From Chromatiaceae bacterium (GTDB lineage Bacteria > Pseudomonadota > Gammaproteobacteria > Chromatiales > Chromatiaceae), in assembly GCA_013426805.1 (NCBI GenBank), contig JACDZG010000059.1, positions 1-42,385 on the forward strand: a stretch of DNA of 42,385 nt, written 5' to 3'. A model generated the notes under the pieces. It made no database searches. It saw only the letters and a program-made list of their open reading frames with translations, and was not told the origin of the DNA. Below are positions 22,226 to 29,763 of this stretch, one piece after another. Positions within the stretch are counted from its first letter, which is position 1, and each line of letters opens with the position of its first letter. The position numbers were made by a program, and so were the translations under genes.

Positions 22226-22777
22226 CTATCCGTCCGCGAGCAGCTCGGCCAGGTCGAGCTCGATGGCCTCGAAAGGCGGGATGCGGGCGCGGTCCCGGTC
22301 CTTCAGGGTCGCGATCACGCGCCAGTCCCCGTCGTCCAGTGCATAGGCCACCAGCGTCCGCTCCTCCGGCCAGATCAACCAATAAAAGGGCACCCGGTGG
22401 CGCTTGAGCAGCAGCGGCAGGTACCGTGTGTCCTTCGTCTCGTGACCGGGGGAGACGATCTCGCAGACCCAGTCCGGCGGCAGTTCGATCACCCCATCCG
22501 GCAACCGCGGCAACCGCTCCCGACGCCAGCCGGCCAAGTCATGGGACGGACAGTCGTGGACCTCATAGGCAACGCTGACCTCGGTCGCGAACCACCAACC
22601 GCCGCCGGGGCCGGCACCGCGGACGAGCGGGTGCAACTCACCGCGCAGGTTACCCTGGGCGGCGGCATGGGCGAACCGCGCCATCGGCCGACGCACGATT
22701 TCGCCGCCGATCAGCTCGACCCGTTCGTCGGGCGACAGAAGCAGGTCATCGAGGGTCTTGAGTTTCAGCGCCTCCAC
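22226..22777 (-). CDS. Uma2-family (DUF820) endonuclease-like protein
   Basis: This 183-aa protein has the Uma2 restriction-endonuclease fold pattern: MSPDER-like opening, VELIGGEIV (20s), a central WVCEIVSPGHETKDTRYLPL segment (split: residues about 102-121) with the acidic and EIVSP residues of the active site, then the FYWLIWPEERTLVAY strand. The GTG start at 22777 is set by a strong AGGAGGT site six bases upstream. Uma2 proteins are abundant in bacteria that carry many mobile or conflict genes, and the function is unproven. It is 255 bp downstream of the lectin-fold gene on the same strand. Confidence 0.82.
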   Translation of the reverse strand: MEALKLKTLDDLLLSPDERVELIGGEIVRRPMARFAHAAAQGNLRGELHPLVRGAGPGGGWWFATEVSVAYEVHDCPSHDLAGWRRERLPRLPDGVIELPPDWVCEIVSPGHETKDTRYLPLLLKRHRVPFYWLIWPEERTLVAYALDDGDWRVIATLKDRDRARIPPFEAIELDLAELLADG

Positions 22778-23032
22778 CGCTCACCTCCTTCCACGGCCGA
22801 TACTGTTGCAAATCAATTTTTTACGAATTCCACTCGCGCCGCACTGGAGGATGTTATCAACTCCCGACGCAGCCACCGACGGAGCGACGCCGGGGATCGG
22901 GATCTGACCGCCGGGCATTCCGCGGCCCCGCTACGCACCGCGCGCCTGGCACGACCCGGCCTGATCCGCTACCGCGGGCCGGGTCCTGCCGGGCGCGCGG
23001 TGCTCCGCTCCCTCCTGACCTGCCGGCCGGGC

Positions 23033-26000
23033 TCACGCCTCCTGAACTCGGGCGCAACGGAAACCCAGGTAGATATTACGGTCGCCGGGCGCGCCCCTGC
23101 CGCGGGAGGCGCAACGGCAGTCGCGCGCGCGGGAGACCCAGGAACCGCCGCGGGCCACCCGGTTCGCGCCGGTCTCCAGCGAACCGATTGGGTCGATCGC
23201 CGGCTGCGCCGCGTAGTCACGCATCCTATCCGCGCACCACTCCCACACATTGCCAAGCATATCGTAAAGGCCCCAGGCATTGGGCTGCTTGGTCTTGACT
23301 CGGCGCGTTCCGGCCCGCTTGGTCTCGTACTGCATCTCCTTCCAGGAATCGCCGGTCGTTGGGTGGGCCTCATCAAGGTCGTAATCGACCCCGCTGTTGC
23401 CGCCATACCAGGCGATGGGGTCCAGCGCTGAGGCATTGCGCTCGCCCTGGATCTCGATCGGACCGCTGTACAGTGCCGTCGCGGTCCCGGCCCGACAGGC
23501 GTGTTCCCACTGGGCCTCGGTAGGGAGCACCAGAGCGAGCCCGGGGACCCATCCGTTGAGCCGTTCCAGGAACCCCTGTGTGTCCGTCCAGCTCACTTTC
23601 TCGACCGGCCGATCCGGATGCTTGAACCGGCTGGGGTTCTCGCCCATGACCGCCTCCCAGAGCGCCTGGGTGCAGGGGGTATCGAAGAGCCAGAAGCCCT
23701 GAGCGATGGTTACCGGGTGTTGCGAGCCTTCAGCCGACCGGCGTCCGGGCTCATCCGGCGGTGAACCCATGAGGAAGCGGCCCGGCGGGCACCAGCGCAG
23801 ACGCTGGATGACCGGCTCAGGGCTCGCGTTACCCTCAGGTGCCACCGCGATCTCGGCCCACAGGCCATAGCGGTCGCGGCCCATGGCGCCGGCCCAGTCC
23901 GGCCGGGGGATCCGGCGCAGCGTCAGCCGCTCGCGATCGGTGAGGATCTCGATGCGCGGGACCCGCGGCAGCGCCACCGCGGCGGTGCCGTGCTGGTCGA
24001 GGCGCAGCACGACCGGCCCCGGCACCGCCTCACCCGCGGGGGTTGCCGATTCTGCTGCCGCCCGGCCCCCTCCGCTGCGCGGGCCGGGCGACAGCAGGCT
24101 CGCACGCTCCGCTGCCGGCCTGCATGACTTGCCTGGCTCACTGACCTGAACTCGGGCGCAACGGAAGCCAAGGTAATCGTCACGGTCAGCGGGCGCGTAC
24201 CTGCTGCGGACGGCGCAACGGCAGTCGCGCGCGTCGGAGCTCCAGGAACCGCCGCGGACCACCCGGGCCGCGCCAGCGTCGGTGGACGCCCAGACCGAGC
24301 CGTCTGCCGGCGCACCCTGGTAGTCGGGATGCCACGGGTCGGCGACCCACTCCTGCACATTGCCAAGCATGTCGTACAGACCCCAGGCGTTCGGCTGTTT
24401 CCGGGCAACCGGATGGGTTCCGGACCTGGGATGAGGATACTGCTGCTCGGGCCACGCGGACGAGTCGTACCCGTTCGCCAGCTCAAGACCGACCCCGCTA
24501 TTGCCGCCATACCAGGCGATGGGGTCCAGCGCTGGGGCATTGTTTGCCCCCAGGATCGCGATCGGTCCCGCATACAGGGCCGTCTCAGTCCCGGCTCGGC
24601 AGGCATGTTCCCATTGGGCCTCGCTCGGCAGCGCCAGCTCGAGCCCGGGCACCAGGGCGTTGAGCCGCGCGAGAAACCGCTGCACATCCTTCCAACTCAC
24701 CTGCTCGACTGGCCGATCCGGGCTCTTGAACCGGCTCGGATTCTCGCCCATCACCGCCGCCCAGAGCGCCTGGGTGCAAGGCGTGTCGAATAACCAATAG
24801 CCGTCGGCAATGGTCACCTGGCGGCGCGGGCCTCCGTCGTCCCGGCGTCCCGGCTCGTCCGGCGGCGAGCCCATCCGACAGCGCCCGGGAGCGATCCAAC
24901 GCAGGCGCTGGGTGACCCGGCCCCCGTCCGCGGCCGGGACGCCGAACGCGCTCCAGGCGCCATAAGTGTCCCAACCCCAGTCGGCGGCCCACGGCGGCGG
25001 CTCTGCGCCTTCCCAGAACGCCGCACGGGCATCATCCAGCCGGATCACCCCGTTGACACTCTCTATCTGCGCCAGGAATCCGGGGTGTCCATCCGCTGCT
25101 TGGCCGTAGCGCGCGCAGAGGGTTGCGCCGCGCTGAAAGAGCGTCACCCGCCGCGCCGGTTGGTCACCCGGCGGCAGGCGCTCCGGACGCAACCCGGGGG
25201 GCGGCTGTTGCTGGGCATCACGGCGCAGGATCTCGGCCCAGATCGCGTAGAAGAAGTCGCCCAGTTCGGGATCATCGAGATAGTCGCCCTGCAGCCACGG
25301 CGCGGCATCGCGAAACCAGGGCAGTGCCCCGGGCACCGGTGATGCACCGCGAACCCCCGCGGCCTGGCGACCGAGCGCGGCGATGAACGCGCGCGAGTCC
25401 CGGACATCGGACGCGCCGGCCAGGCGCGCGCGCTCGGCGGGGGCCAGGGCCTGGAGTTCCGCCAGCCAGATCTCGGAGGGGAGTCCGGCCCGCCAGTCAC
25501 GCTGGAGCGCCAGCGCTTGCCTGCGGATAGACTCTGGTTCGGCGAGGAAGGCCCGGCGGCGGCCCGGCGCGGCGTCCGGGGACAGGGTGGCGGCGACCAC
25601 GGAACGCCCGATGACGGTGCGGTCCTGCCAGACCTCGGACTCGGCCCCGGCGTCCGCGCCGATCAGCAGCCGCAGCCCGCGCAGCAGTCCGGGCTCCAGC
25701 CGCAGGGTGTTCCCGGCCAGGGCCAGGAGACGCTGGACGACGGCCGCGCGGGCGGTCGGGTCGCGCCGCGGCGGCAGGCGCTCCCAGCGCAGGAGGTGCC
25801 ACGCCTGTTCCAGCGCCTCCGGGCAGCAGGGGGCGGGGGTCAGCGCCAAGGTCCGGCAGCGCTCTGCCCGCAGGCGCCGGCCGAGCGCGAGCCAGCGGCG
25901 CCGCTGCGCCCCGCCGCCGCGCAGCAGGCAGCCCAGATCGCCGAGCACCACCACCAGGCTGCCCGGGGGCGGCAGCCGATAGGGATGGCGCCGCCGGGCG

Positions 26001-26677
26001 GCCGCGGCCCAGACCGGCGCGCGCAGTCCCTCGAACCAGAGCGCGTGTTCAAGGGTATGGCGCGGAAAGAGCCGCGCGAGTTGGTGCCTGACCCGTTCCT
26101 GGTCGTCCCAATAGGGTGCCAGATGGTCGCTGCGATCCTCGATGAGGTGCAGCGACAGACCCCAACGGGGGCGCCGCCGCCGCGGCAGGCGCGACAGGCT
26201 CTCGCCGCGACCCATCCGCCGCACGATGTCCGGCAGGTCGAGCGTCCGGGTCTCGGCGGGCGCGGCCATGATCCGGCGCAGTTGGGGCAAGAGCACAGGC
26301 CACTGCGCCAAGGGGGGCGCGTGCGCCAGGTCCTTGGGGCGAGCCGACCAGTCGGGCAGGGTCACCGGGCCGTCGGGGAGACTGGTGGGCGGCGCCGCGG
26401 ACTGACCGCGCAGGGCGGTGGCCAGCCAGAATTGGGCGGGGAGCGGGGGATGCGGGGCGATCTCGGGCGGCCCGGCTGTCGGGAGGACCGCGAACCAGGA
26501 ACCCGGCGGCGACGCGAGCGAGGCGACGACGGGCTCCACGGAGCGGTCCGGGCGCTCGTACCCGAGACACCGCGCGACCGCCGCGAGCAGAGCGTCGTCG
26601 CCGTGCATCAGCGCCCGCACCAGATCGGCCCGGCCACAGATGGCGTTGGGGTGCGGCGGCTGGTTCCGATCGCTCAT
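23033..26677 (-). CDS. vWA-like / tandem FGE-sulfatase (C-type-lectin fold) fusion protein
   Basis: This 1214-aa protein starts at ATG 26677, 19 bp after the MoxR gene. Residues 1-340 form a divergent region with a strand SLHLIEDRSDH (about 175-185) and LVVVLGDLGCL (241-251). This resembles the degenerate vWA-like domain of SAV_2336-type proteins; that assignment is tentative. Two formylglycine-generating-enzyme-like domains follow at about 592-845 and 958-1212, each with MGSPPDEPGRR, PCTQALW, QWEHACRAGT, AWGLYDMLGNV and a terminal RGGSW...GFRCAR. They are about 60% identical. The copper-binding Cys pair of true FGE enzymes is absent, suggesting ligand-binding rather than catalytic domains. 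It is probably the sensor of the conflict locus. Confidence 0.8.
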   Translation of the reverse strand: MSDRNQPPHPNAICGRADLVRALMHGDDALLAAVARCLGYERPDRSVEPVVASLASPPGSWFAVLPTAGPPEIAPHPPLPAQFWLATALRGQSAAPPTSLPDGPVTLPDWSARPKDLAHAPPLAQWPVLLPQLRRIMAAPAETRTLDLPDIVRRMGRGESLSRLPRRRRPRWGLSLHLIEDRSDHLAPYWDDQERVRHQLARLFPRHTLEHALWFEGLRAPVWAAAARRRHPYRLPPPGSLVVVLGDLGCLLRGGGAQRRRWLALGRRLRAERCRTLALTPAPCCPEALEQAWHLLRWERLPPRRDPTARAAVVQRLLALAGNTLRLEPGLLRGLRLLIGADAGAESEVWQDRTVIGRSVVAATLSPDAAPGRRRAFLAEPESIRRQALALQRDWRAGLPSEIWLAELQALAPAERARLAGASDVRDSRAFIAALGRQAAGVRGASPVPGALPWFRDAAPWLQGDYLDDPELGDFFYAIWAEILRRDAQQQPPPGLRPERLPPGDQPARRVTLFQRGATLCARYGQAADGHPGFLAQIESVNGVIRLDDARAAFWEGAEPPPWAADWGWDTYGAWSAFGVPAADGGRVTQRLRWIAPGRCRMGSPPDEPGRRDDGGPRRQVTIADGYWLFDTPCTQALWAAVMGENPSRFKSPDRPVEQVSWKDVQRFLARLNALVPGLELALPSEAQWEHACRAGTETALYAGPIAILGANNAPALDPIAWYGGNSGVGLELANGYDSSAWPEQQYPHPRSGTHPVARKQPNAWGLYDMLGNVQEWVADPWHPDYQGAPADGSVWASTDAGAARVVRGGSWSSDARDCRCAVRSRYAPADRDDYLGFRCARVQVSEPGKSCRPAAERASLLSPGPRSGGGRAAAESATPAGEAVPGPVVLRLDQHGTAAVALPRVPRIEILTDRERLTLRRIPRPDWAGAMGRDRYGLWAEIAVAPEGNASPEPVIQRLRWCPPGRFLMGSPPDEPGRRSAEGSQHPVTIAQGFWLFDTPCTQALWEAVMGENPSRFKHPDRPVEKVSWTDTQGFLERLNGWVPGLALVLPTEAQWEHACRAGTATALYSGPIEIQGERNASALDPIAWYGGNSGVDYDLDEAHPTTGDSWKEMQYETKRAGTRRVKTKQPNAWGLYDMLGNVWEWCADRMRDYAAQPAIDPIGSLETGANRVARGGSWVSRARDCRCASRGRGAPGDRNIYLGFRCARVQEA
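23042..23161 (-). repeat. putative DGR variable region, copy 2 (C-terminal domain)
   Basis: These 120 bp encode residues 1173-1212 and align without gaps to 24146-24265, with 101 of 120 bases identical. Invariant blocks (RGGSW, ARDCRCA, GFRCARVQ) alternate with changed codons. Five of the nine changed codons are NNC in both copies with only positions 1 and 2 altered. See the matching entry and the finding. Confidence 0.5.
24146..24265 (-). repeat. putative DGR variable region, copy 1 (first lectin-fold domain)
   Basis: These 120 bp encode residues 805-844. Compared with 23042-23161, codons differ at residues 807, 813, 815, 823, 825, 827, 830, 833 and 834. Pairs such as AGC/GTC, GAC/CGC, GTC/TCC, AGC/GGC and TAC/GGC keep the third base. 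Only two codons differ silently. The positions match variable sites of C-type-lectin-fold DGR target proteins, whose template usually has AAC there. Confidence 0.5.
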
Positions 26678-26696
26678 GGCAGCGGCGCGGATCGGG

Positions 26697-27797
26697 TCAA
26701 CTGAGCGCTGGTCCGGCGTCGGCGGACGCATCGTCCGCGGCCCGGGGCTGTGGCGGCGACTCGGCGATGGCGTCCGGGTGCTTCTTGAGCGCAAAGTCGG
26801 CGATGCGCCCAAGCACGGTCGTTTGCGCCGCGGCATCGCCCCCGGCCAGGCACAGGACGGCGCGCACCAGGTCGAGATATTCCGCCTGGCCCGGCAGCGG
26901 CAGGCGCCGGGCCTGTTCGGCGGCCTGGCGATCGAGGATGAGCAGCTCGGCCGCCCGCGCCAACAGGGGGTCGCCGGCCGTCTCCGCGGACGCCCCGCGT
27001 CGTGCCCCGAAGTGTGCACGACCGCGCTCCATCAGCACCCGCTTGAAGGCCTCCGGCGCGTCCTTGGCGCTGGGCAGGCGCAGGTGCAGGACCATGCAGC
27101 GGCGCAAAAAGGCGTCGGGCAGGGCGCGCTCCTCGTTGGTGGTGACGATCACCAGCGGGGCGACGCCGGTCGCGACCACGTCGCGCGCGCTGCCCAAGGG
27201 GCGGAACTGGCCGGTACCCAGGGCCTCCAGCAGGCCGTTGGGCACGTCGGACTCGGCCTTGTCGATCTCGTCGATGAGGACGACGCAGCCGTTGGCCGGA
27301 TCGCAGCGGCGCGCGGGGTCGGCGCGGCGCGCGGCATCCCCCGCATCCGGCGGCAGCGGATCGGCGGCACCGGCGGCCCGCGCCTGGGTGCACGCACCCG
27401 CCCAATCGAAGGCCCACCAGAGCGGCCCCGGGGCGACATAGACGCTGACCGCGAGACGTTTGCGCAGGGTGCGCCGCGACCGCGCCGGACCATCCCGCAG
27501 CGCGCCCTGAAGCTGTGCCTCGGCCAACCGGGCGACCGCGTCGTAGCGCCACAGCAAGTCGCTCGCTTCGGTGCTTGCATCCACCACCTGCTGGACATAG
27601 GCCCGGCGCAGCACCAGCGCGGCGGCGCGCGCCAACTGGCTCTTGCCGATGCCGGGCTCGCCGCGCAGCAGCAAGGGGCGCTGGGCGGCCAGGGCGGCAT
27701 CGATGGCGGCGATGCTGTCGGCATCGAAGCAGTGAAACTGCCGCGGGCGATTGCCGGCCGCCGGGATCTCCTCGGCATGGCCGGCGGCGATGGGCAT
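26697..27797 (-). CDS. MoxR-type AAA ATPase
   Basis: This 366-aa ATPase has Walker A GEPGIGKS (46-53), Walker B VVLIDEID (172-179) and a sensor-1 strand VTTNEERALPDAFLRRC, with the arginine-finger region of the MoxR/RavA clade. MoxR ATPases act with vWA-domain partners as chaperone-like remodelling machines. Here the next gene encodes a vWA-like protein, so the pair is probably a functional unit. A TTG at 27806 is an alternative start. The upstream peptidase gene ends 12 bp before the ATG, showing tight packing. The C-terminal 80 residues are helical with an Ala/Asp/Pro tail. Confidence 0.85.
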   Translation of the reverse strand: MPIAAGHAEEIPAAGNRPRQFHCFDADSIAAIDAALAAQRPLLLRGEPGIGKSQLARAAALVLRRAYVQQVVDASTEASDLLWRYDAVARLAEAQLQGALRDGPARSRRTLRKRLAVSVYVAPGPLWWAFDWAGACTQARAAGAADPLPPDAGDAARRADPARRCDPANGCVVLIDEIDKAESDVPNGLLEALGTGQFRPLGSARDVVATGVAPLVIVTTNEERALPDAFLRRCMVLHLRLPSAKDAPEAFKRVLMERGRAHFGARRGASAETAGDPLLARAAELLILDRQAAEQARRLPLPGQAEYLDLVRAVLCLAGGDAAAQTTVLGRIADFALKKHPDAIAESPPQPRAADDASADAGPALS

Positions 27798-27809
27798 GAA
27801 GGTCAAGGC

Positions 27810-29372
27810 TCAGTCCTCCAGGGCTTGCAGGATTTGGATGAGGGGCAGGAAATCGCCGTCCTGGCCCTGGGTCAGATCCGGATCATCCGCCAGTTCGAGA
27901 AAGGCAACGGCCGGGAAGCGCGCCTTGAGCAGGCGGATGGTCTCCAGGCAGGCGGTGCGCGCCTCGGACTCCGGCGGCAGTTCAAACAGGTAGTAGTAAC
28001 GGTTGCTGCCGCTGTCCTCCCCGGCCAGGTTCTCCAAGCGTTTGGCCGCCATGCGCAGGACGCTGTCATCGTCCATGCGGTGCTTGCCGCGCAGGGTTGC
28101 CGGTACGAACTCCTCCATACAACGGTAAAAGGCGCTCTCGAAGGCACCCAGGTCGGTGACGGCGAGCTTGCGGCGCAGGTGCGCAGCGAAGCTGTCCGCG
28201 GTGCGGCGACCGTCTGGATCGATCCCGCTGTTGGGCGCGCGCGGCAGTGACAGGACGCCCTCCAGCTCAGCGTCCGGCGCTGGTGGGCGATAGCGCGTCT
28301 CCCGGTGATCGGCACCGGCCAGGACCACCTCCGCGACGCAGCGGGTGGCGACCGGAAAACCGACCAATACGGCGCTCGGGTCAGCGACCTGCCCGATCAG
28401 ACCGTCGACGGCCGTGTGGTCGTAGAGGATGGGCAACAGGCGCTGCACCAGGTCGGCCAAGGCCCGGGCGTCGCGCGGATGATCGGACTTGAGGACGTGA
28501 ATGGCCTTGCGCGCGTGGACCAGCATATGAACGGCATCATGCGCGGCCAGGGCCTGCGCGAGCGGGCCGACGGACCTGGCGGGATCGCGATACAGGCGAC
28601 CCTCGGGCTCGCCGTCCACCAAGCCCTCCAGCGCACCGACCGCGAACGGCGTCTTGCGCAGCGCTCGTTCCAACTCCGCCTGCAACGCGGCGACCCGGTC
28701 ACCGCCCGCGCGATAGCCGATGGCCGTGCGGAAGTCGGGCTCCTGAAGCAATCGCCAGATGGGCAGGGCCATCACCCGGCCGCCGCCAAACCCCGGGGGC
28801 ACCTTGGTCAGCAAGCCGGCGACCCGCGCGCACACCATGACCGGACAGCCGGAGGCGCCCTGCCAATCCACGGGCTTGGCCGCCGGTGCGGCGACGTCCA
28901 GCCACGCCTCTTCGGCGCGGTTCGCGCACTGATAGGTCCGGCCCCGCAGCGGCACGGCCACGCGCGTGTGGTCCTCGCGTTGGCCGATATCGGGAAAGCC
29001 CTCGCTCTCCCACGGCGTGTCGGTCGCGTGGTTGCGTGCGGTGAGTTCGCACCAGCGCGGGACCTCGGGGGGAAAGGCATGCGCGAACACCGCGGCATCG
29101 AGCGCACCGCATCCGGTCTGGGCGGGCGGGTAAAGGATCTGCGTGCGTTTGACTTTGGTCCATTCACCAGGCGCCTTGCCGCTCGTGCGCCAATGATGCC
29201 AACGGACTTCGAAGTCGGCGTGAAGATCGAGCGACTCGTCCAAGAGGACGTGGCCGGCGGTGAGGATGCGGTCTTTGGCAATAGGGATACCCGTGCCGAT
29301 GCGGCCGGATCCGCTGCCGTCGGCCAGGGGCACGAAGATCTCGATCAACAGATCTTTGAAGTTGGTTTCCAC
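27810..29372 (-). CDS. trypsin-like serine peptidase with large C-terminal region
   Basis: This 520-aa protein starts at a GTG (29372) with AGGAGA about 11 bases upstream; the longer frame is a shadow of the preceding gene. The S1 peptidase triad is intact: His41 (LTAGHV), Asp92 (GALDAAVF) and Ser174 (GASGCPV). There is no signal peptide, so it is cytoplasmic, unlike secreted trypsins. Residues about 220-520 are an unrecognised, mainly helical region with a charged YYYLFELPPESEART-like block near its end. In known conflict loci such peptidases are effectors whose partner regions respond to an NTPase switch. That role is inferred here from the neighbours. Confidence 0.82.
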   Translation of the reverse strand: METNFKDLLIEIFVPLADGSGSGRIGTGIPIAKDRILTAGHVLLDESLDLHADFEVRWHHWRTSGKAPGEWTKVKRTQILYPPAQTGCGALDAAVFAHAFPPEVPRWCELTARNHATDTPWESEGFPDIGQREDHTRVAVPLRGRTYQCANRAEEAWLDVAAPAAKPVDWQGASGCPVMVCARVAGLLTKVPPGFGGGRVMALPIWRLLQEPDFRTAIGYRAGGDRVAALQAELERALRKTPFAVGALEGLVDGEPEGRLYRDPARSVGPLAQALAAHDAVHMLVHARKAIHVLKSDHPRDARALADLVQRLLPILYDHTAVDGLIGQVADPSAVLVGFPVATRCVAEVVLAGADHRETRYRPPAPDAELEGVLSLPRAPNSGIDPDGRRTADSFAAHLRRKLAVTDLGAFESAFYRCMEEFVPATLRGKHRMDDDSVLRMAAKRLENLAGEDSGSNRYYYLFELPPESEARTACLETIRLLKARFPAVAFLELADDPDLTQGQDGDFLPLIQILQALED

Positions 29373-29448
29373 GACTGGCCGGTCTCCTGGCGCGTCCCGA
29401 TCAGGGGCGGTTCGAGAATGCGTTGCAGCAGTCCTGGGGCCGCGTTGT

Positions 29449-29763
29449 TTAATCTGGTCTTGGGGTCGGCCCGGAGTGGATCTTGACGTCGGATCGACCC
29501 TGTCGATCGACGACCTTGAGCTTGAGCTTGACCTTCTGCGTGCTGACCTCGGAGTCCTTGAGCTTGGCACTGGCATCGAGTACCCAAAACTTGATCCCGA
29601 CGCCGCCCTCGGCCTCCTGGGTGGCCGCGATCTGCAGCTCGACCTCGATATCCTCGATCTGAAAAAGCAGCGCGCTGCCGGCACCCGCTCCTTGCGCCTG
29701 GAGCAGTTCCGTACGCAACTCGCCGAGCATTGCGGCCAAGGGAATCTGACTCTTCACGTTCAT
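29449..29763 (-). CDS. Trypco2-domain (trypsin-co-occurring) small protein
   Basis: This 104-aa protein starts at ATG 29763 with a GAGG ribosome site. The N-terminal helix (IPLAAMLGELRTELLQAQ) is followed by alternating strands (ALLFQIEDIEVELQIAATQ, IKFWVLDASAKL, QKVKLKLKVVD). This agrees with the Trypco2 domain that repeatedly neighbours trypsin-like peptidases in conflict systems. It is the first gene of the minus-strand unit, 76 bp ahead of the peptidase. It may be an adaptor or inhibitor of the peptidase; this is not shown by sequence. Confidence 0.75.
   Translation of the reverse strand: MNVKSQIPLAAMLGELRTELLQAQGAGAGSALLFQIEDIEVELQIAATQEAEGGVGIKFWVLDASAKLKDSEVSTQKVKLKLKVVDRQGRSDVKIHSGPTPRPD

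Follow-up and report, generated by a model that had tools for sequence, protein, structure and literature searches.

The window, a stretch of 42,385 nucleotides that constitutes contig C338 of the analysed genome (G000; 7.6 Mb in 349 contigs, with an estimated contamination of 3.98%), contains a large gene on the minus strand (ORF 23033-27019, a 1328-aa frame; likely start near 26677, at MSDRNQ..., as judged from the translation). The encoded protein consists of an N-terminal part that has no Pfam match, followed by two tandem FGE-sulfatase domains of the C-type-lectin fold, both of which are covered by PF03781 (two stretches, E 3.5e-82). The PDB entry nearest to the second domain is the Treponema denticola variable protein 1 (2y3c, E 3.8e-21); a structure prediction for this domain reached a pLDDT of 43.5 and was set aside. 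Directly upstream lies a gene for a MoxR-like AAA ATPase (26697-27806, minus; PF07728 AAA_5, E 1.3e-11), preceded by an ORF (27810-29684, minus, with the true start inside it) that we tentatively annotate as a trypsin-like protease and putative effector. This ORF has no Pfam or NCBIfam match and only a weak PADLOC match to LmuA (E 9.8e-5, residues 116-309), and occupies the position of a trypsin-like ORF on contig C139 that itself scores below the Trypsin_2 cut-off (24.9 against 27.6 bits). On the downstream side, the large gene is adjoined by a gene for an Uma2-type putative restriction endonuclease (22226-22777). The two named relatives of the large gene come from uncultured Thiodictyon MAGs, and one related genome, G147, is placed in the same genus as the genome of the window; the host probably belongs to Thiodictyon or stands close to it. 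A weak relative of the N-terminal part (E 1.7e-16) is present at G000:C224:7344-8441 (L104, L121); a scan of C224 for template/repeat pairs found one pair with 3 non-adenine mismatches, which was not taken as a diversity-generating retroelement (DGR).

Within the gene, the highest identity over 120 bases without gaps is that between the segments 24146-24265 and 23042-23161 (minus) of the two FGE domains, at 101 of 120 bases; any other offset gives at most 77 of 120. The 19 differences affect 11 codons, of which nine are changed non-silently and two silently, and our recount of identities, differences and codons agrees with the sequence-only reading, which had interpreted the twins as variable repeats of a DGR; the residue numbers 813-827 given there are incompatible with the 1328-aa frame. 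The twin domains alone do not bear out homogenisation of the repeats, since the similarity inside the repeat is matched by some blocks outside it: the repeat-holding blocks are 87 and 78% identical, and the others 54 to 87%.

When the whole genome was searched at the DNA level with the second repeat (VR2) as the query and 40 of the 68 first-look candidates were scored, six close copies, four on C139 and two on C71, and two weak ones were recovered besides the two window repeats. C139 harbours a complete DGR, with the gene order of a probable trypsin-like protease, a MoxR-like ATPase, a target with two repeats, an HRDC protein, a reverse transcriptase (RT), the template, and a one-domain target with the third repeat. 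The template core (C139:9813-9922), with AAC at most of the variable places, begins 44 bases beyond the end of the RT ORF (9769); in the target frame, it reads NNHARNCRCAYRNRNAPADRNDN and has a coding capacity of about 1.3e11 protein variants. The RT sequence contains the motifs IGALTSQ and YMDD, the RT motif of DGRs being (I/V/L)GxxxSQ, and scores 38.3 bits with RVT_1 (cut-off 29.6). Its best PDB match, at 137.6 bits, is 8ub7, which we take to be the DGR reverse transcriptase of BPP-1; the next entry, a GsI-IIC RT, scores 53.6. The accessory gene was expected to be Avd but is of the HRDC type (PF00570, E 2.5e-17): all five Avd matches in the genome lie elsewhere than on C139. Taken together, the RT motif, the template close to the RT, the adenine-specific repeats and the HRDC accessory gene identify the C139 system as a DGR. 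The absence of an RT and a template from the entire genome would have spoken against the DGR interpretation; both are present, outside the window, and the template repeat has the right length and AAC at most of the variable sites. The tetranucleotide profile of the window correlates with those of C139 and C71 at 0.76 and 0.71, respectively, a weak separation from the controls (four other stretches of G000, 0.62-0.71; three from other genera, 0.50-0.64). Altogether, the genome encodes six DGR-type RTs (on C139, C259, C347, C198, C311 and C152), and at every one of them the best 90-base stretch of a template/repeat pair is free of non-adenine mismatches.

The repeats were compared with the C139 template over a 110-base core that comprises 20 adenines and 90 other bases. 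The core of the first window repeat, VR1 (24151-24260, minus), is changed at 9 of the 20 template adenines and at 4 of the 90 other positions (Fisher p 1.7e-5), and that of VR2 (23047-23156, minus) at 13 and 7 positions, respectively (p 1.4e-7). In the three repeats on C139, 12, 13 and 6 adenines are changed, and none of the other bases; of the two on C71, one has 12 changed adenines and no other change, and the other has 15 changed adenines and one further changed base. Compared to each other, the twins differ in 9 of the 20 template-adenine columns and 10 of the 90 other columns (p 0.0011), so that 10 of the 19 differences are off the adenine columns of this template, and the twin comparison is a weaker sign than the comparison with the template; some of these columns are adenines in the template of the related genome G148. 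Similarly, the five pairs of NNC codons that had been noticed in the twins are as described, but the proposed origin from AAC holds for three of the five, the corresponding template codons being AAC, CAC, TAC, AAC and AAC. Conceivably, plain duplication followed by positive selection on the binding site could have produced the twins without any retroelement, given that 9 of the 11 changed codons are non-silent, for which selection alone could suffice. However, the concentration of changes on the adenines of a separate, RT-adjacent copy in the same genome, seen in the window repeats and likewise in the five further repeats, renders this possibility extremely remote, and divergence by selection alone is contradicted by the template.

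Both window repeats depart from the template at some non-adenine sites, where a current target would be expected to agree with it throughout, and the mismatches are scattered along the core. Thus, with 4 and 7 non-adenine mismatches among 90 sites, the window gene appears to be a former or rarely served target, and recent diversification of its repeats is unlikely. The C71 target lies on a different contig from the template; it is probably remote and still has the appearance of a current target. The relationship between drift and the state of the RT was assessed across the related genomes, with each repeat compared to the template of its own genome where one was identified and the RT states taken from draft assemblies. 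Where the RT of the genome is complete or nearly so, and with the window excluded, 11 of 11 repeats (five in G000, three in G147, one in G157 and two in G074) have 0-1 non-adenine mismatches, compared to 2-15 in 6 of 6 repeats from genomes with a partly or wholly deleted RT (three in G148, two in G080 and one in G159; rank test p 0.0005, with repeats of the same genome not independent). In G147, residues 1-48 of the RT are missing from the match, and a search for an HRDC gene in the 12 kb covered found none; a different template may underlie the G148 repeat that has 15 mismatches; and the repeats of G027 (RT present) and of eight other genomes do not enter the comparison, as the stretches covered there yielded no template core. 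The window repeats appear to behave like orphans despite the intact RT in the genome. Parts of HRDC or RT are missing from the loci L113 (G080), L115 (G159), L106 (G148), L105 (G113), L112 (G020), L119 (G072) and L120 (G071), and the template is retained in G080, G159 and G148; these losses could be partly an assembly artefact.

It might be argued that the C139 system still diversifies the window gene in trans, at a low rate or on part of each repeat. Varying trans targets are reported in the available text on Thiohalocapsa PB-PSB1 (PMC10907252), and the C71 repeats, off the contig of the template, match it at 90 and 89 of the 90 non-adenine sites. The drift of the window repeats, spread along the core, against 0-1 sites in the five other repeats, makes ongoing diversification rather improbable. 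A better, if still unlikely, candidate is a different DGR, now lost or unassembled, that once lay beside the window gene and wrote its repeats, the C139 template being a cousin. VR2 is slightly nearer to the G148 template (5 mismatches at 87 sites) than to the C139 template of its own genome (7 at 90), as if an older form of the template had written it, and VR1 is equally distant from both (4/87 and 4/90); furthermore, a true parent template could be missing from an assembly of 349 contigs, and several loci of the same class in the relatives retain targets after partial loss of HRDC and RT. Against such a parent, no second template emerged when the genome was searched twice with the window repeats: outside the window, an identity of at least 81% was reached by the C139 and C71 copies alone, and all further matches were short or weak. 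Moreover, no HRDC or RT remnant is detectable in the window at E 1e-3. The five other DGRs of the genome were rejected as parents because their template sequences differ. Most economically, judging from these alignments, the window gene would be a remote target of the C139 system whose rewriting has ceased or become very rare. A comparable case is described in the accessible part of a study on T. denticola, where 19 of the 21 changes in a remote leftover target are at template adenines (PMC4891356).

Each window repeat is followed by a long hairpin. Hairpin 1 (24047-24102, minus; arms 24047-24068 and 24081-24102, 86% complementary) is located in the coding linker between the two domains; its stem is among the weaker ones (19 of 26 positions paired), and its apex is GCA. 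Hairpin 2 (22935-23003, minus), just past the stop codon, has 27-nt arms that are 15 nt apart and 93% complementary and the apex CCGC-GGTA-GCGG; the DNA fold z for this region (22900-23050) is -4.08. In all seven repeats of this class in the genome, an inverted repeat with arms of 17-29 nt and a spacer of 11-15 nt starts 30-53 bases 3' of the core, and the spacer holds a nested mini-hairpin. A search with the 23-base GGTA apex that allowed up to three mismatches found two sites in the genome, both exact, after the window VR2 and after the second C139 repeat; this identity, together with the good pairing of hairpin 2 (24 of 26 positions), counts in favour of continued diversification in trans.

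To score the hairpins, a match was set to 1 and a mismatch to -2. A score of at least 14 was reached by 7 of the 7 own repeats, 13 of the 31 repeats in relatives and none of the seven templates (one own and six from relatives), as well as by 6 of 1500 control stretches of 130 bases, both in the three own loci and in all 20 loci. The relatives' repeats represent 17 loci in 15 genomes; 35 genomes, the own one included, had a match, and three repeats were lost to contig ends. At a score of at least 11 (controls, 10 of 1500 for the own loci and 14 of 1500 for all 20), a clear hairpin is present in only 18 of the 31 repeats, the other 13 remaining below; hence, even within this class of DGRs, not every repeat has the hairpin. 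Three repeats of other classes (two on C347 and one on C198) score 5 each and were excluded from the subsequent counts.

Among the 38 repeats with 140 bases of downstream sequence, which were aligned from the apex outward, 30 have a loop-like motif; 25 of these, including 24 distinct ones, pair at no fewer than 14 of 26 positions. In these 24 hairpins, 520 of the 624 position pairs are complementary, compared to a mean of 337 and a maximum of 386 in 500 shuffles of the right arms, although the choice of rows by pairing and the fitting of loop lengths favour pairing, and related rows are not independent; 44 further pair types were counted. The arms pair better with their own partners than with the arms of other rows, which, at the level of sequence, indicates that the stems covary. 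The apex is a nested mini-hairpin that, apart from minor variation, reads CCGC-GGA-GCGG or CCGC-GGTA-GCGG: the 26 repeat-linked apexes found by pattern comprise 21 GGA, 4 GGTA and a single GCA, that of the window VR1. By comparison, none of the 33 unlinked look-alikes in the same loci has GGA or GGTA, and one (GGCA) fits GRNA. With up to two mismatches, the 22-base apex pattern has 20 sites in 13 of the 210 genomes of the family (one site for the reversed control), and 17 of these lie 49-95 bases 3' of a repeat; of the other three, one follows a truncated 3' remnant (G159:C8), one sits at the edge of a contig (G157:C35) and one has no repeat (G040). In the own genome, the GGA pattern with three mismatches allowed gives four sites, two of which, on C19 and C178, have no repeat discernible by eye.

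Could the hairpins be terminators or REP-like or MITE-like repeats that merely happen to be near variable repeats? MITE-like stem-loops at the DGR loci of PB-PSB1 are described in the available text of PMC10907252, hairpin 2 follows a stop codon, and 13 of the 31 repeats in relatives fall below the score of 11. Nevertheless, hairpin 1 and three of the C139/C71 hairpins are inside target reading frames, inspection of the sequence revealed no T-run after hairpins 1 and 2, the sites of the apex pattern concentrate past repeats, and the stems vary in sequence and still pair, unlike copies of one mobile element. We therefore regard this explanation as improbable; the possibility that the hairpins are dispersed repeats, specifically, was rejected by the apex pattern scans of the own genome and the 210 family genomes. 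Rather, the long hairpin seems to mark the targets of this DGR.

Hairpins 3' of the variable repeat are a known feature of phage DGRs, where, as far as the consulted part of PMC3240598 goes, the stem is 7-10 bp, the 4-nt loop is GRNA and the distance is 4-34 bp; in BPP-1, the structure but not the sequence of the stem matters, the loop is sequence-dependent, and two additional loop nucleotides abolish function. The hairpins described here share with these the location 3' of the repeat, the free stem sequence and the conserved loop, as they do the BPP-1-type combination of an inverted repeat and a GRNA/GRA loop. They differ in the stems of 17-29 bp, the nested GGA/GGTA mini-hairpin and the distance of 30-53 bases from the core, and none of the own seven has a 7-10 bp stem with a 4-nt loop directly on it. 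In the accessible text on the archaeal DUSEL4 DGR (PMC4372165), the hairpins have a GRA triloop and are located in the target gene, as here, and a long stem with a nested apex is not mentioned. The long nested hairpin combines the GRA/GRNA loop already known from hairpins of DGR targets with a stem of much greater length. Such a form is not described in the texts, as far as available, of PMC3240598, PMC4372165, PMC10907252, PMC4891356, PMC7517822, PMC7159879 or PMC3521204, nor in literature listings, a scope that leaves aside subscription papers and supplements.

We consider it highly probable that the window twins are variable repeats of the DGR encoded on C139, belonging to a remote, hairpin-marked target gene that has drifted since and that encodes a MoxR-linked sensor. 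The template RNA would be reverse transcribed with errors at adenines, and each FGE domain would have its 3'-terminal repeat replaced by the mutated cDNA, with the long hairpin 3' of the repeat flagging the target; the window repeats would have been written remotely by the C139 template, or by an earlier form of it, and would have drifted afterwards. More speculatively, and with considerable doubt, we propose that the HRDC-type DGRs of purple sulfur bacteria recognise their targets via a long cruciform (a stem of about 26 bp and a nested GRA/GRNA mini-hairpin), probably bound by HRDC, so that a hairpin 3' of any FGE domain would make a trans target, and decay of the hairpin, as in VR1 with its GCA apex, would retire it. 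If so, gain and loss of hairpins would amount to growth and shrinkage of a hypermutated sensor repertoire. Binding of HRDC to the hairpin is hypothetical, and HRDC is not established as its unique partner. HRDC genes also accompany Avd at two other loci, C259 and C347, the latter with repeats that have no hairpin; G074 and G027 possess HRDC and an RT that is 60-62% alike, yet no long hairpin follows the repeats seen there, which counts against a strict link between HRDC and the hairpin.

Most likely, the target protein is the variable sensor of a conflict system that also includes the MoxR ATPase and the trypsin-like protease, as the gene neighbourhood suggests. On C71, too, the target is preceded by a MoxR-like gene, here together with a TIR-metallophosphoesterase gene. 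Models of vWA and VMAP have no match in the target or the protease-like neighbour, so that, with MoxR but neither of these, the locus is not classed as a VMAP (MoxR-vWA) ternary conflict system. In the available text on PB-PSB1, conflict-system targets are proposed as antigen sensors, with no experimental test (PMC10907252). The similarities to PB-PSB1 and the clade 5 DGRs covered by the same text include several DGRs in a large genome of a purple sulfur bacterium, tandem FGE/CLec repeats within one target, neighbouring MoxR and trypsin-like genes, trans targets, and degenerate loci; the differences are that no vWA domain was found at the window locus, that its repeats have drifted, and that the long nested hairpin is undescribed there. 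The window locus resembles the vWA-less DGR 8/9 loci of that source. The HRDC accessory gene is shared with the T. denticola DGR, whose targets are lipoproteins, in contrast to the MoxR-linked target in the window (PMC4891356); the words hairpin, stem and inverted repeat are absent from the text of that paper that was available.

This one genome allows a base-level comparison between targets of a single template that are current, remote or drifted, and non-adenine mismatches could serve as a simple clock for the time when a DGR ceased to serve a gene. The covarying long hairpin provides a sequence handle for DGR targets that have no RT nearby and makes the choice of trans targets by cellular DGRs directly testable. 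The six loci with RT, template and repeat add to the connection that the consulted part of PMC10907252 proposes, for aggregate-forming bacteria, between the possession of multiple DGRs and conflict systems. At the C259 locus (L027), which belongs to another DGR class, the repeat near position 248 is followed by a hairpin with 22-nt arms and an 8-nt loop (score 13); in the four remaining classes apart from that of C139, no repeat scores above 8. At G159:C8:3063-3084 (L137), an intact hairpin apex follows the truncated 3' end of a variable repeat of which the remainder is gone.
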